Source of the DNA: Oscillospiraceae bacterium
GTDB lineage: Bacteria > Bacillota > Clostridia > Oscillospirales > CAG-272
NCBI GenBank assembly: GCA_015063695.1
Contig: SVTQ01000012.1
Location: forward strand, 1 to 53,894
DNA length: 53,894 bases
Reading direction: 5' to 3'
In this document: piece by piece, positions 9,729 through 46,003 of the stretch
Numbering within the stretch: the stretch's first letter is position 1
Layout: the number at the start of each line of letters is the position of its first letter
Made by a program: the position numbers and the translations under genes
The notes under the pieces: model-generated
Seen by the model: the letters and a program-made list of their open reading frames with translations, nothing else
What the model was told of the DNA's origin: nothing
The model's database searches: none

Positions 9729-10832
9729 CTATAGGATGAGCATTGCGTCTCCGAAGGAGAAAAATCTGTACTTTTCTTCTACAGCTGTCTTATATGCTTC
9801 CAGCATGCTTTCTCTGTTATAGAGTGCGCTTACAAGCATAAGGAGAGTGCTTTCGGGAAGATGGAAGTTTGTAATGAGCGCATCTGTCATTTTGAAGGTG
9901 TATCCGGGGTAGATAAAGATACCCGTGTCACCCTTGACGGGATGGAGAATACCTTCGCTGTCAGAAGCACTTTCGAGAGTTCGGCAGGAGGTCGTGCCGA
10001 CGGCGATAACTCTTCCGCCTGCTTTTTTTCTGCTGTTAATGATCTCTGCGGCTTCTTCGGTTACTTCAATATATTCTGCGTGCATCTCGTGGTCGGCTAT
10101 CTTTTCCTCCTTAACGGGACGGAAGGTGCCAAGTCCCACGTGAAGAAGAACGGGGACGACCGCAACGCCTTTTTCTTTTATCTTTTCAAGGAGCTCATTT
10201 GTAAAATGAAGTCCTGCAGTGGGCGCGGCGGAGGAGCCTTCGCATCTTGAATAGACCGTCTGATAGCGTTCTTGGTTCTGAAGCTTTTCCGTGATGTAAG
10301 GGGGAAGGGGCATTGAACCAAGCTCGTGAAGGGCACTGTAAACACTGTCAAAACGCGCGGGGTCAGCAGTAAACTGAACCTTTCTGATACCACCCTCGGG
10401 AAGAATTTCGAGAACCCTTGCGCTCAGTATCCCGTCACCGAAGGAGAGCACGTCCCCGAGCTTTGCTCTCTTGCCGGGACCTGCCAGTGCTTCCCACACG
10501 TCGTTTTCAAGTTGCTTTAAAAGAAGAAGCTCAACGGGTGCATCGCTTCCCGTTTCAACGAGGGTGCCGTTTTCATTTCTGTGGCTTCTGACACCGATTA
10601 TTCTCGCAGGGATGACTCTTGTGTCGTTGATAACAAGAACGTCGCCGGGGTTCAGATAATCGATTATATCCGAAAAGACTTTGTGTTCTATGTCTCCGCT
10701 CTTTCTGTCAATGACCATAAGACGGGATGAGTCTCTTTTTTCAAGGGGAGTCTGTGCAATTCTCTCCTGAGGAAGGTCATAGTAAAAATCTTTAAGTGTG
10801 AGGTCTGTTTTTGTTAGTTCATTTCTGATCAT
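9729..10832 (-). CDS. queA: S-adenosylmethionine:tRNA ribosyltransferase-isomerase
   Basis: Adds the ribosyl part of SAM to 7-aminomethyl-7-deazaguanine at tRNA position 34 to form epoxyqueuosine. The 367-aa length is slightly above the usual 340-350. Family segments are [50 protein letters not shown] and [18 protein letters not shown]. The ATG at 10832 is preferred over a TTG ten codons upstream; GGAG lies 13 nt before it, a little far. Other queuosine genes are not in the window. It follows proS after a terminator and two hairpin repeats. Confidence 0.95.
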
Positions 10833-10860
10833 AGTTTTATAATCACTCCGTGAAGCTTTC

Positions 10861-10888
10861 AAAAAACGGGCGGGAGAATTCCCCCGCC
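10861..10888 (-). terminator. terminator of proS
   Basis: On the minus strand a GC-rich stem GGCGGG / CCCGCC (10869-10874, 10883-10888) is followed by TTTTTT (10861-10866). It lies about 100 nt after the proS stop, beyond the two hairpin repeats, and just before queA. Confidence 0.7.
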
Positions 10889-10904
10889 TGAGTTTTTATT
10901 TTTT

Positions 10905-10987
10905 AAGGGGTCCTCAAGCTGTTGTAAGACGGCTTGGGGTTCTCGGTAAGGGGTCCTCAAGTTGCCGCAAGGCGACTTGGGGTTCTC
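10905..10987 (+). repeat. two tandem GNRA-hairpin repeats
   Basis: Two 43-nt units (10905-10947, 10948-10990) each contain a 28-nt hairpin from CCTCAAG to CTTGGGG. The loops are GTAA and GCAA. The second unit runs directly into the proS stop codon (10988-10990). The hairpin is better paired on the plus strand, where two U-G wobbles replace what would be A-C mismatches on the other strand. Three further copies lie at 21311-21444. Confidence 0.85.
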
Positions 10988-12712
10988 TTAGATGTCGTAT
11001 TCAGCGAGAAGCTTGTTAACGAGAGCCTTAATTTCCTCAGCCGCATTGTCTATTGCAAATTCGGTTCTGAGGCTCTTGTCTCTGAGGGAAACTTCAACAA
11101 CACCGGCATCGCAGGTCTTGGGGCTTACTACAACACGTACGGGAATACCGAAAAGGTCGGCATCTGCGAACATGGAGCCGGGACGGATGTCGCGGTCGTC
11201 GTAAAGAACTTCAACGCCTGCCTTCTTAAGGTCTTCGTAAAGCTTGACGGCTGTGGAGTTTACCGTTTCATCGGTGCATCTGAGGTTGCATACTTCAACC
11301 TGCCAGGGCGCGATGGAGATGGGCCAGATGGGGCCGTAGTTGTCGAAGCTTTCCTGACAGATGGATGCCATAAGTCTTCCGACACCGATACCGTAACAGC
11401 CCATGATGGGATGCTTTGCTTCGCCGTCCTTGTCAAGGTAAGTCATTTCCATGGACTTTGTATACTTTGTGCCAAGCTGGAAGATGTTACCTACCTCGAT
11501 ACCTCTCTTGATGGTGATGGCAGGCTTTCCGCAAACGGGGCAAACTGCGCCTTCGAATATCTTTGCAACGTCAACGTATTCAACGTCTCCGATGTCGCGT
11601 GCAATATTAAGGCCTGTGAAGTGGTAGTTTTCCTCATTTGCGCCGCAAACGAAAGAGTTTATTCCGTCAAGGGATTTGTCATATACAACTGTGCAGTTTT
11701 CTGTAAGACCCTTGGGGCCGATAAAGCCTGCAACGATACCGCTTTCTTCTGTGATAACTGCCGCGGGATGGATCTCTTCGCCGAGGTAGTTGCGAAGCTT
11801 TGTTTCGTTTACTTCAAGGTCGCCTCTTACGAAGATAACAACGTAGGAGTCATCCTTGTTTCTCTGGTAAACAACAGCCTTCATAAACTTCTTTGCATCG
11901 ATCTTGAAGAAGGCCTCAAGTGCTTCGATGGTCTTTGTATCGGGAGTGTGTACCTTTGTGAGCTCGGAAATTTCGCCTGCTTCGTTTACGATATCGCAAG
12001 CGGCAACCTCCATGTTTGCTCTGAAATCACAGTTGTCGCAGATAGCAAGTGTGTCTTCTCCGATCTCTGTGAGAAGCATGAATTCGTGAGAGATGCTGCC
12101 GCCCATCATACCAGAGTCGGACTTAACTGCAACAACGTTCTTAGCGCCTGCTCTCTTGTAAATTCTTTCATATGCTTCGTAGCATTTTTCGTAGTATGCT
12201 TCAAGGTCTTCCTGAGAGGTGTGGAAGGAGTAAGCGTCCTTCATTGTGAATTCGCGAACTCTGATAAGACCGCCTCTTGCACGGGGCTCATCGCGGAACT
12301 TTGTCTGGATCTGGTAGATCATGAAGGGGTACTGTGTGTAGGAGTTTGCGGTGTTTCTTGCAAGGTGAACGGCCGCTTCCTCGTGAGTCATGCCGAGAAC
12401 CATCTTGTTGCCGCTTCTGTCTGTGAAACGCGCCATTTCCGCGCCGATGGCGGTATATCTGCCTGACTCTTCCCAAAGGGTAGCAGGCATTACAACGGGG
12501 AACATTACTTCCTGACCGTCAATTCTGTCCATTTCTTCTCTGATGATGGCTTCGATCTTCTTTGCCATTCTCTTTGCGGGGGTGAACAGTGAATAAATAC
12601 CGTTGCTCATGTATTTCATGTAACCGCCGCGGGTCATCAGCTTGTGGCTCTCAATAGAGCAGGAGGAGGGAGCCTCCTTAAATCTTTCGCCTAAAAGTAC
12701 CGATACTTTCAT
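10988..12712 (-). CDS. proS: prolyl-tRNA synthetase, bacterial type with editing domain
   Basis: Charges tRNA-Pro with proline. The 574-aa length is that of the bacterial form, which carries a YbaK-like editing insertion, here roughly residues 225-395. Class II motifs are clear: GMTHEEAAV, then FRDEPRARGGLIRVREFTMK (motif 2) and GCYGIGVGRLMA (motif 3), followed by a C-terminal anticodon-binding domain with DDRDIRPGSMFADADL. The N-terminus is MKVSVLLGERFKEAP. AAGGAG lies upstream of the ATG. It has its own promoter and is followed by a hairpin repeat that abuts the stop codon, then by queA. No T-box is seen in its short leader. Confidence 0.96.
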   Translation of the reverse strand: MKVSVLLGERFKEAPSSCSIESHKLMTRGGYMKYMSNGIYSLFTPAKRMAKKIEAIIREEMDRIDGQEVMFPVVMPATLWEESGRYTAIGAEMARFTDRSGNKMVLGMTHEEAAVHLARNTANSYTQYPFMIYQIQTKFRDEPRARGGLIRVREFTMKDAYSFHTSQEDLEAYYEKCYEAYERIYKRAGAKNVVAVKSDSGMMGGSISHEFMLLTEIGEDTLAICDNCDFRANMEVAACDIVNEAGEISELTKVHTPDTKTIEALEAFFKIDAKKFMKAVVYQRNKDDSYVVIFVRGDLEVNETKLRNYLGEEIHPAAVITEESGIVAGFIGPKGLTENCTVVYDKSLDGINSFVCGANEENYHFTGLNIARDIGDVEYVDVAKIFEGAVCPVCGKPAITIKRGIEVGNIFQLGTKYTKSMEMTYLDKDGEAKHPIMGCYGIGVGRLMASICQESFDNYGPIWPISIAPWQVEVCNLRCTDETVNSTAVKLYEDLKKAGVEVLYDDRDIRPGSMFADADLFGIPVRVVVSPKTCDAGVVEVSLRDKSLRTEFAIDNAAEEIKALVNKLLAEYDI

Positions 12713-18968: not shown

Positions 18969-18983
18969 AGGGAGGTGCGGAAA

Positions 18984-21026
18984 ATGGATGAGATAAAACT
19001 TATTATAGACGGTAAAAGTGTTGTCGGCAAAAAAGGCGACACGGTCCTCAAAATAGCAAAAGAAAACGGCATCGAAATTCCCACTCTCTGCCACAGCGAG
19101 GCTGTAAAGGTTTACGGAGCCTGCGGTCTTTGCACCGTTGAGCTTGAGGGAAGCCCCAAGCTTCTCAGAGCTTGTGCAACCGTTGCAGCTGACGGTATGG
19201 TTATTCATACCAATACGGAAAGAGTCCGCCGCTCCCGTAAGATAGCTCTTGAGCTTCTTATGAGCGATCACCACGGTGACTGCAAGGGCCCCTGTACTCT
19301 TAATTGTCCTGCAGGAACAGACTGTCAGGGCTACGTAAAGCTTATTGCCGACGGTGACTACCACGGTGCAGTAAAGCTTATAAAAGAAAAGCTTCCGCTC
19401 CCCGCTTCCATCGGCAGAGTATGTCCTCACCCCTGTGAGACTGCCTGCAGACGTAAGATGGTTGAAGAGCCCATTTCAATAGCGCATCTTAAATTCTTTG
19501 CCGCTGACCGCGACCTTGAGGAGAACACCTTCGTTCCCGAGATTGCTCCCGAGAGCGGAAAGAAGGTCGCAATAATCGGCGGCGGCCCCGCAGGACTGAC
19601 TGCGGCTTACTTTCTCCGTGTTAAAGGTCACGCGGTAACTGTATTTGATGCTATGCCCAAAATGGGCGGTATGCTCAGATACGGTATCCCTTCCTACCGT
19701 CTTTCGAAGGACGTCCTTGACAGAGAAGTTAAGGAAATCCGTGATCTCGGCGTTGAAATGAAAAACGGCGTGAAGATCGGCCGTGATATTACTCTTGATG
19801 AAATTCGCGCAGAGTACGATGCTGTATTTATAGGCATCGGTGCGTGGAAGAGCAGCAGTATGCGCTGCAAGGGTGAAGACCTTGTCGGCGTATGGGGCGG
19901 TATAGATTTTCTTCGCGAGGTCTCCTTCTTTAATTCCGGTGACGGTGATGCGCCCGAGATAGGAAAGACTGTAGCGGTAGTCGGCGGCGGTAACACTGCC
20001 ATGGATGCCTGCCGCAGTGCGGTCCGTCTCGGTGCTGAGAAGGTTTACGTTATTTACAGACGTACAAGAAGCGAAATGCCTGCCGAGGATATTGAAATAG
20101 AAGAGGCAATGGAGGAAGGAGTAGAATTCAAGTTCCTTTGCAATCCTTCCGAAATTATCGGTGAAGACGGCAAGGTGAAGTCCGTAAAGCTTCAGATAAT
20201 GGAGCTTGGCGAGCCCGATGCAGGCGGAAGACGTTCTCCCGTACCCGTTGAAGGAAAGTTTGAATACCTTGACGTTGATACGGTTATCTGTGCCATCGGT
20301 CAGACTATTTCTGCCGAAGGCTTTGAGGCAGTTGAAAAAACACAGCGCGGCATGATATGCGCCGATGAAAATTCCTTCAGAACTTCTCTTGAAGGCGTTT
20401 TCGCAGGCGGTGATGCAACGAATCGCGGTGCTTCCATTGCCATTGCGGCAATAGGGGAGGCAAACAAGGCGGCATCAGTTATTGATGCTTACCTTTGCGG
20501 TATGGACGTACCCTACAGAAAGCCTTTCGTTTCCGAAACCGTGGTCACTCCCGATATGCTATCAGACAGAGAAAAAGCGCCCCGTGCAAAGATGCCCGTG
20601 CGCTCTGCTATTGATCGAAAGTGCGATTTTAATGAGATATATCTCGGTCTTTCCGAGGAAGAAGCGCGTCGCGAAGCGGCTCGTTGCCTCTCCTGCGGTT
20701 GTCACGATTACGGCGAGTGCAAGCTTATAAAGTATGCAGACGATTACCGTGTAGAGCCTGCGAGACTTGCAGGTGCAAAGAATATCGCAAAGAAGGAACA
20801 GTCTCTCGTTTCCATTGAACGTGACGGTTCAAAGTGTATTCTTTGCGGTCTTTGTGTTCGTGTTTGTGACGAGGTAGCAAAGAAGGGACTTTTGGGGCTT
20901 GTCGGCCGCGGCTTCTCGACAGTTGTTAAGGCTGAATTCAACACTCCCGACGCAATAAGCGGCTGTGCTTCCTGTCACCTCTGCGTTGACGAGTGCCCCA
21001 CAGGCGCACTTAAGTTCTTGAAGTAA
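18984..21026 (+). CDS. [2Fe-2S]/GltD-like/2[4Fe-4S] flavoprotein (candidate StnA)
   Basis: 680-aa multidomain oxidoreductase. Residues 1-80 form a [2Fe-2S] ferredoxin (C36, C47, C50, C64), followed by a NuoG-like His-Cys cluster region merging into the GltD-type cysteine domain (C100, C104, C108, C114, then C147, C151, C155). Two Rossmann motifs follow: FAD-binding GGGPAGL near 199 and NADPH-type GGGNTAMDACR near 333. The tail has CILCGLCVRVC (about 618) and CASCHLCVDEC (about 661). There is no hydrogenase H-cluster motif, so this is not HydA. A GltD/NfnB-like core on a HydA-like front end is the published arrangement of the StnA subunit. The ATG at 18984 has GGGAGG upstream; a GTG at 18975 is less likely. 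Confidence 0.88.
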   Translation: MDEIKLIIDGKSVVGKKGDTVLKIAKENGIEIPTLCHSEAVKVYGACGLCTVELEGSPKLLRACATVAADGMVIHTNTERVRRSRKIALELLMSDHHGDCKGPCTLNCPAGTDCQGYVKLIADGDYHGAVKLIKEKLPLPASIGRVCPHPCETACRRKMVEEPISIAHLKFFAADRDLEENTFVPEIAPESGKKVAIIGGGPAGLTAAYFLRVKGHAVTVFDAMPKMGGMLRYGIPSYRLSKDVLDREVKEIRDLGVEMKNGVKIGRDITLDEIRAEYDAVFIGIGAWKSSSMRCKGEDLVGVWGGIDFLREVSFFNSGDGDAPEIGKTVAVVGGGNTAMDACRSAVRLGAEKVYVIYRRTRSEMPAEDIEIEEAMEEGVEFKFLCNPSEIIGEDGKVKSVKLQIMELGEPDAGGRRSPVPVEGKFEYLDVDTVICAIGQTISAEGFEAVEKTQRGMICADENSFRTSLEGVFAGGDATNRGASIAIAAIGEANKAASVIDAYLCGMDVPYRKPFVSETVVTPDMLSDREKAPRAKMPVRSAIDRKCDFNEIYLGLSEEEARREAARCLSCGCHDYGECKLIKYADDYRVEPARLAGAKNIAKKEQSLVSIERDGSKCILCGLCVRVCDEVAKKGLLGLVGRGFSTVVKAEFNTPDAISGCASCHLCVDECPTGALKFLK

Positions 21027-21062: not shown

Positions 21063-21094
21063 TTCCCCCAAAAACTTTCAAACAGCACTATAAT

Positions 21095-21209
21095 AGCCTT
21101 CTCCTGAGGGAGAAGGTGTCACCGAAGGTGACGGATGAGGAGTTGTGTTGAAGCTTATGGACACCTCATCCACCACTGCGTGGTCCCCCTTCCCCCACTG
21201 GTGAAGGCT
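21095..21209. repeat. MITE-like palindromic intergenic repeat
   Basis: 115-bp element bounded by inverted ends AGCCTTC (21095-21101) and GAAGGCT (21203-21209), with internal hairpins such as GTGTCACC/GGTGAC and CCACCACTGCGTGG. No coding sense is visible. The ends match those of the element at 33215-33255, which points to a repeat family. Confidence 0.6.
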
Positions 21210-21264
21210 ATATGGGGAATGGGCGCGGTGGAAGGCTTTGCTACAGTGATACGATAAACAATAC

Positions 21265-21308
21265 GGCGGCAGATGTTTTCAAAATTCGGAAACATCTGCC
21301 GCCTTTTT
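21265..21308 (+). terminator. strong rho-independent terminator without an assigned gene
   Basis: Perfect 14-bp stem GGCGGCAGATGTTT / AAACATCTGCCGCC (21265-21278, 21290-21303) followed by TTTTT. It is the strongest terminator in the window and points in the plus direction, yet the nearest plus-strand gene ends 240 bp upstream. It may be the true end of the redox operon, or of a small RNA in 21065-21264. Confidence 0.8.
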
Positions 21309-21310
21309 GT

Positions 21311-21444
21311 CAAGGGGTCCTCAAGTTGTCGCAAGACGACTTGGGGTTCTCTTGTCAAGGGGTCCTCAAGTTGTCGCAAGACGACTTGGGGTTCTCTTGT
21401 CAAGGGGTCCTCAAGCTGTCGTAAGACGGCTTGGGGTTCTCTTA
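21311..21444 (+). repeat. three tandem GNRA-hairpin repeats
   Basis: Three units with a 45-nt period start at 21311, 21356 and 21401. Each holds a 28-nt hairpin from CCTCAAG to CTTGGGG with a 4-nt loop (GCAA, GCAA, GTAA). Units 1 and 2 are identical; unit 3 differs by a paired change in the stem (T-A to C-G) and a loop change. The array lies 33 bp from the stop of the leucine-rich-repeat gene. Confidence 0.9.
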
Positions 21445-21476
21445 GGAGGGTAACTTAGCGAAATTGTTTGAAGCCT

Positions 21477-24287
21477 TTACTTTGCAAGGCTTTTTTTGAG
21501 TACAAGCGAGTCTTTTGCATTGAATTCTCCGTCACCGTTTACGTCAAGGGTATGGAATGCAAGCGCGGAGGGATCAAGCGCATATACAAGGTATTTTTTC
21601 ATAAGAAGAGAGTCGCGGGCATTTATTTCCGTATCTCCGTTCAGGTCGCCTTCTATAGCGCCGATTATAGGATCAAGCAGTGAATCGGGGTTATTGGTTG
21701 AAACAACCACTTTGTCCCACTGTTCTTCCGTGCCGTAATAGTAGACTGCAACGTTTGTGTACGGATTGAGCGCTTCTTCGTTGATATATTTAACGCTGTC
21801 GGGGATGATAAGCTTTTTTAACTCGTTGCCGGAGTAGGAATATAAAGCGCCCTCCGCTATAAGATAGGTTCCTTCTTTGACAACGTAGGTGCTGTCTGAT
21901 AAGTAGAAATCACTTACCTTAATGAGATAATTATCAATATAAAGAGCACCGTCGACCCACTTATTGTTGTTGTTATCGCCGTATGGGGTAGAAGCAAAAG
22001 CATTCCATTCAATGTACTGTACGCCGTCTTCTATTGATATGTCGACAAGACTTATGCAATAATGGAAGGCGCTTTCGTCAATATATTTAACCGTTGAGGG
22101 AATATGTATGGAGCTAAGCGCTGTCATGCTGCTGAAACAATAGTTTGTAAGCTTTGTCAGACCTGCAGGAATGTTTATGGCTTCAAGAGAGGAAGTATGC
22201 GCAAATGCAGATCTGCCAAGAGTTGTGATGCTGTCGGGAAGAACTATGTTTTTGAGAGAAGTGCAATATTGGAATGCTCCGGCTCCGATGGTTTCAAGAC
22301 CTTCGTTTAATATAACGGTGTCAAGGTCGGTGCAATTTCTGAAGGCAGAGGCTCCAATGGACTTTATATATGCAGGGATCTCTATTTCATCAAGACCCGT
22401 GCAGTCTTTGAATGCATCCGTAGGAATTTCCGTCATGTTGGGGGAGAACGTTACAGATGCCAGTTTTTCGCAGCCTTCAAAAACATTTTTTCCAATAGAT
22501 TCAATGTGTTCGGGTATTTTAAATTCAACAAAAGAGATGCAGCCTTTGAATGTGCCAGCAGGAATTTCCGTCATGTGGGAGGGGAACGTTACGGATGTCA
22601 GTTTTTTGCAACCTTCAAAAACGTTTTCTCCAACAGATTTGATATGATCGGGTATTACGATTTTAGAGAGAGCTATGCAGTCTTTGAAGGCATATGCGGG
22701 GATTTCCGTCATGCTTTTTGAAAATATTATAACACGCAAACTTGTGCAATATGAAAACGCATATTCTCCGACAGTTCTGACAGTGTCTGGAAGCTTAATT
22801 GAAATAAGGCCTCTGACTCCATAGAACGCATACGCCGCAAGCTCTTCTATTTGGGAATTTTCGGAGAATTTTATTTCGGTAAGTCTTAAGCAGTTCTCGA
22901 AGGCATAGCCCTGTATCTCTTTTACTCCGGAAGATATAGTTACACTTGTCAGATAGATACAATCTTTGAAAGCTTTAGTGCCGATAGAAGTTATGTGTTC
23001 CGGAATCACGAATTTTCCAAGACTGTCGCAAGATTCAAAGGTACTCTCGGGGATAACCGCAACATTCTTTGAAAGCGTTACGGAAGCAAGAGCGTCGCAA
23101 TCGGCGAAAACACTGTTACCAAAAGAAGTAACCGAATCGGGGATGGTGATAGCGGTCAAACTGTCGCAATCGGCGAAAACACTGTTACCAAAAGAAGTAA
23201 CCGAATCGGGGATGGTGATAGCGGTCAAACTATCGCAATCGGCGAAAACATTGTTACCAAAAGAAGTAACCGAATCGGGGATGGTGATAGCGGTCAAACT
23301 ATCGCAATTGGCGAAAATACCGTCGCTAAGGGAAGTAACCGAATCGGAGATATTGATATCGGTCAAACTGTCGCAATTGGCGAAAACACTGTTACCAAAG
23401 GAAGTAACCGAATCGGGGATGGTGATAGCGGTCAAACTGTCGCAATCGGCGAAAACACCGTCGCTAAGGGAAGTAACCGAATCGGGTATGATAATTTCAG
23501 TTAAGCTGTCGCAATCAGCGAAAGCTTCAGCGCCTATGGATCGTAGCGTATCGGGAAAAACGATTTCTTTAAGGTTTGTGAATCCTTTGAACATCTCTGC
23601 TTCAATCGTGATAAGATTTTCGGGAAGAATTACCTTTTCCAGAGACGTACACCCTTCAAAAAAGGAAGAGAACAAGGTCGCCATATCGGAAGGAAGCACA
23701 ACCTCTTTAAGGCTCGTACAGTTGCGAAAGATCGGGGAGGAAAAAGAAACGTTGGTGGGCAGTTCTACGGTTTCAAGAGCCGAACATCCCGAAAAAGCGT
23801 ACATTTCGATATTCTTAAGCTCTTCGGGAAAAACAACGGTAGTAAGTGAGCTGCAGTTTTTAAAGGCCTGAGCTGAGATCTTGGTAACTCCTTCAGGGAT
23901 ATCGATTGATTTCAAAGAAACACAATCGAAAAATAACAGCGTAGGAATGCTTTCAAGGTTGGCGGAAAGAATAACTTCTTCAAGGGATGAACAACCGCTG
24001 AACCCGCGTGCATACAATCGGGTTACCGTATCGGGAATTATAACGGAAACAATGCTTGTATTACCGAAAAAAGCACCTCCTATTTCCTGAACGGTATGAC
24101 CGTCAATTTCGGAAGGGATGATCACGTTTGTGTCCGTTCCATTATACGCTGTTATCTTAATTGAATCTGTATTTTTGATAACTTCATATTCATATTCGCT
24201 GGTCTGTTCAACTGCAAGGGTATGAATTGCCCCTATGCATAAGACCATAGCTAATATGACGACCCAAATTTTCTTTAAATTCTTCAT
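21477..24287 (-). CDS. secreted BspA-type leucine-rich-repeat protein with dockerin
   Basis: 936-aa predicted secreted protein. The ATG at 24287 is preceded by AAAGGAG and followed by a signal peptide (MKNLKKIWVVILAMVLCIG, cleavage near HTLA). About 33 BspA/TpLRR-like repeats of 22-23 aa follow (pattern FxxCxSLxxIxIPDSVTSIG), a fold used by gut and oral bacteria for binding surfaces or host proteins. Residues about 261-398 are six nearly identical 23-aa units. The C-terminus (880-936) is a dockerin with two calcium loops, DLNGDTEINARD and DVNGDGEFNAKD. There is no catalytic domain. It is likely displayed through a cohesin-bearing scaffold. It stands divergent to the XRE gene, with which it shares a 168-bp regulatory region. 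Confidence 0.9.
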   Translation of the reverse strand: MKNLKKIWVVILAMVLCIGAIHTLAVEQTSEYEYEVIKNTDSIKITAYNGTDTNVIIPSEIDGHTVQEIGGAFFGNTSIVSVIIPDTVTRLYARGFSGCSSLEEVILSANLESIPTLLFFDCVSLKSIDIPEGVTKISAQAFKNCSSLTTVVFPEELKNIEMYAFSGCSALETVELPTNVSFSSPIFRNCTSLKEVVLPSDMATLFSSFFEGCTSLEKVILPENLITIEAEMFKGFTNLKEIVFPDTLRSIGAEAFADCDSLTEIIIPDSVTSLSDGVFADCDSLTAITIPDSVTSFGNSVFANCDSLTDINISDSVTSLSDGIFANCDSLTAITIPDSVTSFGNNVFADCDSLTAITIPDSVTSFGNSVFADCDSLTAITIPDSVTSFGNSVFADCDALASVTLSKNVAVIPESTFESCDSLGKFVIPEHITSIGTKAFKDCIYLTSVTISSGVKEIQGYAFENCLRLTEIKFSENSQIEELAAYAFYGVRGLISIKLPDTVRTVGEYAFSYCTSLRVIIFSKSMTEIPAYAFKDCIALSKIVIPDHIKSVGENVFEGCKKLTSVTFPSHMTEIPAGTFKGCISFVEFKIPEHIESIGKNVFEGCEKLASVTFSPNMTEIPTDAFKDCTGLDEIEIPAYIKSIGASAFRNCTDLDTVILNEGLETIGAGAFQYCTSLKNIVLPDSITTLGRSAFAHTSSLEAINIPAGLTKLTNYCFSSMTALSSIHIPSTVKYIDESAFHYCISLVDISIEDGVQYIEWNAFASTPYGDNNNNKWVDGALYIDNYLIKVSDFYLSDSTYVVKEGTYLIAEGALYSYSGNELKKLIIPDSVKYINEEALNPYTNVAVYYYGTEEQWDKVVVSTNNPDSLLDPIIGAIEGDLNGDTEINARDSLLMKKYLVYALDPSALAFHTLDVNGDGEFNAKDSLVLKKSLAK
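23094..23507 (-). repeat. six tandem 69-bp units inside the LRR gene
   Basis: Units start at 23094, 23163, 23232, 23301, 23370 and 23439, each exactly 69 bp and encoding 23 aa. Two unit types are mixed: one encoding SFGNS/NV and one encoding SLSDGV/I. Near-identity at DNA level contrasts with the diverged repeats on either side and indicates recent expansion. Confidence 0.95.
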
Positions 24288-24367
24288 CTTTTTTCTCCTT
24301 TCGATGTTCAAATGAATTTTGTTTATATACGTATCCCAACGAGGGAATAATAGGACTAATTCTTCGT

Positions 24368-24385
24368 TGCACCCATATCGGTGCA
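24368..24385. promoter_or_regulatory. inverted repeat at the LRR transcription start
   Basis: TGCACC / GGTGCA with a 6-nt spacer overlaps the predicted start point of the LRR gene (about 7 nt past its -10). It could be an operator, perhaps for the adjacent XRE protein, or a stem-loop at the 5' end of the mRNA. Confidence 0.5.
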
Positions 24386-24390
24386 TAATT

Positions 24391-45754: not shown

Positions 45755-46003
45755 CATGAGGCTATGATGAAGACAGACGGACGGGAAGCGGCGGTACAGA
45801 GAGCTGTTGTTTGCTGAGAAACAGTGCGCGGTGTGTTCGGTATTCACTTCGGAGCCGGTCGGGTGATAACGTAGTCCGACCCGGTGCGGAACCGTTATCT
45901 TCCGGAAATGAGTGCTGACGTTTTATTTTCGACGTTGGAATTCGGGTGGTACCACGGAGCTATGCCTCGTCCCGTATAGGACGGGGGATTTTTGTTTTTC
46001 GGA
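45755..46003 (+). ncRNA. T-box riboswitch of pheST
   Basis: Class I T-box leader. The antiterminator core AATTCGGGTGGTACCACGG is at 45939-45957. It is followed by an intrinsic terminator, stem CCTCGTCC / GGACGGGG (45965-45972, 45979-45986) with ATTTTTGTTTTT. Upstream stems begin at GATGAAGACAGACGG. A TTC triplet (45843-45845 or 45848-45850) is a candidate specifier for phenylalanine, in keeping with the downstream genes. The 200 nt between the terminator and pheS hold a further hairpin (TGTTTTTCGG/CCGAAAAACA, about 45993-46020) and A/T-rich DNA. Confidence 0.92.

Follow-up and report, generated by a model that had tools for sequence, protein, structure and literature searches.

We describe here a DNA hairpin of about 40 nt whose copy number in the genome of an Oscillospiraceae bacterium is about 90. 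The hairpin has a fixed foot, exchanges its inner stem with pairing retained, folds far better on one strand than on the other, and resides in repeats that also occur without it. We explain it best, with a probability of roughly 0.7, as a REP-like non-autonomous mobile DNA hairpin that is probably mobilized as a single folded strand by a trans-acting enzyme. Copies lie after terminators and in the loops of unrelated repeats and recur in identical form on six contigs, and these observations point to a mobile DNA hairpin.

The hairpin and its two tandem arrays

The window, by which we mean the whole 53,894-nt stretch of DNA analyzed, is one contig of a 1.85-Mb genome that is 91% complete. It contains five copies with an exact foot, at 10912-10939, 10955-10982, 21319-21346, 21364-21391 and 21409-21436, organized as a main array with periods of 45 and 45 nt and a second array with a period of 43 nt (Table 1). 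When up to three mismatches are allowed, the two strands of the window hold 15 matches, against 3.46 (sd 1.86, max 9) in 100 shuffles.

A preliminary description of this DNA had reported five copies of a shared hairpin in arrays of these periods, T-A/C-G exchanges at two stem pairs (three copies against two at one, four against one at the other), GCAA or GTAA loops, and two U-G wobbles confined to the plus strand, all of which our analysis bears out. The length of 28 nt that it assigned was too short, as the hairpin spans 40 nt once a lower GGGG/UCUC helix is included. The unit is laid out as AAGGGG, a U opposite a U, CCTCAA, the variable stem and loop, TTGGGG and TTCTC, so that in the plus-strand fold the lower helix is followed by the U-U mismatch and then by the upper helix. 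Folded as RNA, the 40 nt give -22 kcal/mol (z -5.5) for the plus strand and -10.8 kcal/mol (z -2.4) for the minus strand. The foot (GGGGTCCTCAA...TTGGGGTTCTC) is constant across copies, and the inner stem is swapped between subfamilies. This fixed foot keeps G-U wobbles that are one change away from Watson-Crick pairs, which argues for recognition of that strand.

The TTGTC that stands ahead of the first copy of the main array occurs again at 21352-21356 and 21397-21401. Because TTGTC precedes each copy and is not found after the last, the sequence of the main array fits duplication better than repeated insertion. Arrays of the form GTCGG-[ ]-GTCGG-[ ]-GTCGG, where the brackets stand for a copy, suggest either that insertion recurred or that short flanking repeats served for duplication, and tandem arrays in general may arise by either route. 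The arrays of the window would be neutral, occupying a harmless place with a terminator on one side and a stop codon on the other.

Three other features of the window are recorded here for completeness. A hairpin-free GATGAGG-type palindromic MITE lies at 21093-21211, between the upstream gene and the main array; the LRR_5/dockerin gene contains 138-nt and 69-nt tandem repeats (22400-22713 and 23094-23523); and a T-box leader is present at 45755-45977.

Table 1. Positions in the window of the hairpin copies and of the features around them
Feature	Position	Strand	Remarks
queA-like gene	9729..10862	-	Queuosine_synth; far side of second array
Hairpin GGGCGGGAGAATTCCCCCGCC with T-rich tract	10867..10904		between queA and second array; limits by eye
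Second array, hairpin copy 1	10905..10944	+	
Second array, hairpin copy 2	10948..10987	+	right end abuts proS stop codon
proS-like prolyl-tRNA synthetase gene	10988..12712	-	class II core, editing and anticodon domains; ends at second array
Gene upstream of main array	18975..21026	+	flavin/iron-sulfur oxidoreductase domains
Terminator-like inverted repeat and T-run	21258..21310	+	immediately ahead of main array; 26-nt arms, 85% complementary
TTGTC ahead of copy 1	21307..21311	+	45-nt unit TTGTCAAGGGG...
Main array, hairpin copy 1	21312..21351	+	AAGGGG...TTCTC
Main array, hairpin copy 2	21357..21396	+	identical to copy 1
Main array, hairpin copy 3	21402..21441	+	C-G/G-C stem variant, GTAA loop
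Converging gene	21477..24386	-	LRR_5 repeats and dockerin domain; stop 35 nt past main array

Copy number and covariation

Pattern scans of the genome with up to three mismatches found the hairpin at 36 places (none for a reversed-pattern control), and scans with a free inner stretch found it at 59 (one for the control). Genome searches used a covariance model, R1. At E<=0.01 it gave 90 matches and at E<=0.1 it gave 96; these totals include a few places matched on both strands. The hairpin, first noticed in the two arrays, is thus not limited to them. Nine copies that are identical across 41 nt are spread over six contigs.

Stem changes were evaluated in an alignment of 32 chosen copies, 30 of them distinct. 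The covariation is real: 94.5% of cells are paired against 81.9% after shuffling, 66 cells carry double changes against 19.8 (sd 3.8), and the covariation score is 0.372 against 0.122, with values of 0.039 to 0.093 for slid structures. Two other measures show no excess over shuffles in the same alignment: doubly changed pairs number 6 (5.8 shuffled) and further pair types 18 (17.6 shuffled). Stem changes therefore stay paired and the folded strand is kept. The preliminary description had held that random, unpaired stem changes in copies across the genome would refute a selected structure and had proposed a covariance-model search of the genome and its relatives; that search has now been made, and the stems proved to be paired. 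Its reading of the hairpin as an RNA structure survives insofar as a folded strand is conserved, and finds no support insofar as it implies an RNA gene or regulator, given the copies after terminators and in the loops of unrelated repeats.

The copies fall into subfamilies with a common foot and different stems (GTTGTC, AAAAATCC, AAAAGTCC, AAACAGAC, AAACATTC, AATTAGC, GCTATC and others), and the bases ahead of GGGG likewise vary (AA, GA, CT, GC, CA, CC and others). Among the matches listed from other genomes, 60 of 62 distinct inner sequences form at least nine base pairs, the two exceptions being the matches in other phyla (see Distribution), and the sense strand has the better fold in 86 of 87 copies. 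The GNRA loop that had been described is correct for the main local subfamily and fails as a family trait, occurring in 4 of the 62 distinct inner sequences elsewhere among the matches listed. The external stems of this list also have G-A at the fourth variable pair (27/62) and A-G at the fifth (25/62), a pattern of tandem G-A pairs just below the loop that is seen, for example, in loci L200, L209 and L239.

Genomic sites

By a crude ORF test, 79 of 86 copies in the genome lie outside ORFs of at least 100 aa. Of 31 main-type sites without a preceding copy, 18 are bordered on the GGGG side by a terminator-like hairpin and T-run, and one is so bordered on the other side; at the 40 other-type sites the figures are five and six. 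Of 43 main-type copies, 16 (and doubtfully a seventeenth) have their right end no more than 12 nt from the stop of a converging ORF; among 43 others there is none. A crude ORF finder places 11 of these 16 within 1 nt of the stop, and one of the ORFs, on contig C29, continues across a further degenerate copy.

This positioning by stop codons is what would be expected if the hairpin acted in transcripts as a structured regulatory RNA, for instance by stabilizing 3' ends or by blocking ribosomes or exonucleases, and the strong covariation, the far greater stability of the sense strand and the sense orientation of all eight copies found in the RNase P RNAs of four genomes agree with such a role. 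However, the stable strand begins after a terminator-like hairpin at the majority of main-type sites, and a converging mRNA would bear the weaker complement. The hairpin is moreover found in the loops of unrelated repeats and is missing from most relatives. We therefore regard a regulatory RNA as unlikely.

The repeats that host the hairpin are also found empty. A REP-type palindrome measures 20-22 nt when empty (three places in the genome) and 66-67 nt with its loop filled (seven places), and a GATGAGG-type MITE, of the same family as the hairpin-free repeat in the window, measures 44-45 nt when empty (two places) and 86-88 nt when filled (three places, two positions). Several copies of this genome sit within REP-type palindromes with a CTAC/GTAG end, and such a palindrome also precedes one RAYT-like gene (see below), as though the hairpin were part of GTAG-type REP loops and traveled with REPs only. 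Such a passenger role is made highly improbable by the copies found in RNase P RNA, next to terminators and in repeats of the MITE type.

The flanks of 86 non-redundant single sites contain inverted matches of at least 5 nt within 30 nt at 59 sites, against 38.3 (sd 4.5) after shuffling. Flank pairing exceeds shuffles for the other types of this genome (19 sites) and for external sites (46), and is no better than shuffled for the main type (-6.07 against -6.75 kcal/mol, 21 sites). Direct matches of at least 5 nt within 10 nt are present at 13 of the 86 sites, where shuffling yields 3.8 (sd 1.8), with a slight excess also within 30 nt (47 against 40.1). The short direct repeats beside some copies include GTCGG, GCGTG, AGAAGG and TTGTGTCAA, and would suit a classical DDE miniature transposon with terminal inverted repeats and target duplication. 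Yet flanking duplications are variable or absent at many sites; they are of unequal length and are missing from most single sites, which disfavors a target duplication of fixed length, and the terminal repeats stay imperfect in one strand-specific manner. A DDE transposon is accordingly a distinctly unlikely source of these copies.

Three congeners have no hairpin at the site of the second array, which follows the TAA stop codon of proS. Their proS orthologues (G001, G002 and G003) are 78-81% identical to that of the present genome, whose proS ends at the same position as those of G001 and G002. The 260 nt past the proS alignment are free of the hairpin in all three, and the next gene is queA-like by eye; the syntenic proS-queA site is thus shown to be an empty site. 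In G028 no hairpin follows proS either, and the queA-like neighbor is missing.

Insertion into RNase P RNA

RNase P RNA genes were found by cmscan in four of the element-bearing loci, L115 (from contig C38 of the present genome), L210, L179 and L167, and in the two cmscan alignments printed (L115 and L210) the insert is located in the P12 loop. Counted by eye, the gene of the present genome carries one hairpin copy, RUG12346 two, RGIG3597 three and RUG12975 two. In 43 insert-free relatives the P12 stretch is 26-54 nt long in 42 and 81 nt in one. In a tree of the RNase P RNA minus P12, the gene of the present genome clusters with that of G002 (support 0.79), in which P12 is free of the hairpin, and the other three insert-bearing genes fall in a clade with G013 (0.97), whose P12 has a sister-type hairpin (GGGGTTCCCCGAA...TTCGGGGGTTC). 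Since the first gene stands with a copy-free relative and the others stand apart with G013, the tree makes it probable that P12 received the hairpin on two or more occasions.

Entry into RNase P RNA is not a rule. Fourteen further positive genomes gave 12 RNase P matches, of which ten have a normal span of 345-371 nt, one is 625 nt long with another repeat and one is broken. An Rfam scan of 100 element-bearing loci found only the four RNase P genes overlapping the hairpin. G001 and G003 each have a contig end inside P12, at which the contig starts; this is compatible with a repeat-induced break and is no proof of a copy. Some of the assembly breaks in gut Clostridia may be due to the element.

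Related structures were seen at several of these loci. The RNase P RNAs of L273 (G041) and L333 (G083) have a P12 of 303 nt. In L273 it contains a different repeat, about 130 nt long and present twice, and both copies start with a GGGGTCCC-type hairpin. The sister hairpin type GGGGTTCCCCGAA...GGGGGTTC occurs in L276 (G013), L220 and L203. At L219 180-270 a stretch resembling a tRNA T-arm (GGTTCAAGTCC) comes after the hairpin, and a complete tRNA-Pro lies upstream; a tRNA host was rejected here, the tRNA-Pro stopping before the hairpin.

It is tempting to see in these observations a distinct class of mobile DNA hairpin of about 40 nt that targets existing hairpins, nests in them and adds outer arms to functional RNAs such as that of RNase P, an idea that we hold tentatively and at less than even odds. 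If true, it would let the gain of expansion segments by structured RNAs be observed directly. That structured RNAs grow when hairpins are inserted is generally deduced from old alignments; in the present case the P12 insertions are seen beside insert-free relatives, and the unit can be traced through several further targets.

Distribution

The distribution of the hairpin is patchy. Searches with R1 found it in 8 of 59 genomes including the present one; among congeners G001 has 17 copies, G003 has 20 and G002 has none. An order-wide draw was positive in 17 of 394 genomes at E<=1e-4, these falling in 11 of 169 genera and four families (f1, f7, f13 and f20), and in a class-wide draw of 391 genomes holding part of the order the present genome was the sole positive. 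In G001 and G003 many model matches are found no more than about 200 nt from the end of a contig, which would suit an assembly broken by the repeat.

A pattern scan of the GTDB species genomes matched at least 88 stretches. The 80 matches listed come from 28 assemblies, all but two of which are Clostridia, Oscillospiraceae or Ruminococcus MAGs, and many of the listed assemblies are titled as deer, goat or buffalo gut. The two matches in other phyla (L214 and L221) are without the full stem and were set aside as chance. Phage and plasmid records gave no match by Blast, and viral contigs none in an exact pattern scan; with no match in the three collections, spread by phages, plasmids or viruses was rejected.

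RAYT-like genes and a possible mode of movement

Homology identifies five loci for RAYT-like HUH proteins in the present genome. The Pfam Y1_Tnp domain is found at three of these five and in one IS200-like gene. At L062 a REP-type palindrome (1239-1260) lies 12 nt upstream of a 174-aa RAYT-like gene. The presence of RAYT-like genes, one of them just behind a REP-type palindrome, thus indicates that this class of machinery is present in the genome.

The co-occurrence of RAYT-like genes with the hairpin is weak (5 of 8 element-positive against 16 of 51 element-negative genomes), and G003, G041 and G054 have the element with RAYT undetected. Because the presence of RAYT does not track that of the element, we do not regard RAYT as a proven mobilizer. 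No hairpin lies within 1 kb of any of the five RAYT-like loci in the present genome, and among the matches listed one of 88 external loci of 8 kb or shorter has a RAYT. Nor was a transposase-like ORF seen by eye between neighboring copies at five places, and the 547 ORFs of the 88 external loci listed contain no recurrent transposase-like gene and no linked autonomous element; the most recurrent protein cluster among them, from 11 loci, resembles by eye a surface repeat protein.

In the explanation that we favor, the hairpin would move as single-stranded DNA, with the fixed foot as its putative recognition site and a HUH/Y1 (RAYT-like) protein as the candidate enzyme supplied in trans. Insertion would take place at or into other hairpins. 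The weak association with RAYT-like genes, the irregular flanking duplications and the main-type flanks that pair no better than shuffled ones count against this explanation. With its fixed foot, free stem and strand asymmetry, the hairpin offers a clean system in which to find an enzyme that reads one folded DNA strand.

Comparison with known systems

A literature search without most subscription journals found no published description of the hairpin. No family of Rfam 15 reaches its gathering score over the arrays. A relaxed search of 21250-21470 returned 33 matches, all below the gathering score and mostly to microRNA models that fit the palindrome, and a known RNA family was rejected.

The closest likeness is to the REP/BIME elements linked to TnpA-REP/RAYT, which, in the passages of PMC3733652 and PMC6006769 that treat them, are comparable in size, copy number, mostly intergenic sites and possession of a hairpin with a conserved foot. 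PMC3733652 also records REPs inside palindromes in some families. An effect of REPs on mRNA is reported in a section of PMC6006769, and by analogy a secondary effect of our hairpin on converging mRNA is possible. Unlike REPs, the hairpin does not have a GT[AG]G tetranucleotide at its 5' foot; its stem is exchanged wholesale, and it occurs inside RNase P RNA. Because it is without the GTAG foot and has no RAYT gene within 1 kb, we have not filed it as a REP.

For the insertions in RNase P RNA the nearest precedent is the STRRs, which are short oligonucleotide repeats in tandem. STRR repeats are found in cyanobacterial RNase P RNA genes (Vioque 1997, by its title as given in PMC2858038), and P12 is sometimes dispensable according to a portion of PMC2858038. 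The present hairpin differs from STRRs in being a covarying 40-nt unit with a fixed foot that is also found in other palindromes.

The strand asymmetry of the hairpin recalls IS200/IS605 elements and their derivatives; the strand-specific subterminal hairpins of this family are recognized by a Y1 transposase (PMC6006769). In contrast to that family, the five places and 88 external loci covered showed neither a transposase gene near copies of the hairpin nor a left and right pair around one. Rickettsia palindromic elements, which are longer than the 40-nt hairpin, provide a final parallel. They too are palindromic repeats dispersed into functional sequence (mentioned in PMC3733652). They are known in protein-coding frames, whereas the present hairpin has an RNA gene as its functional host.
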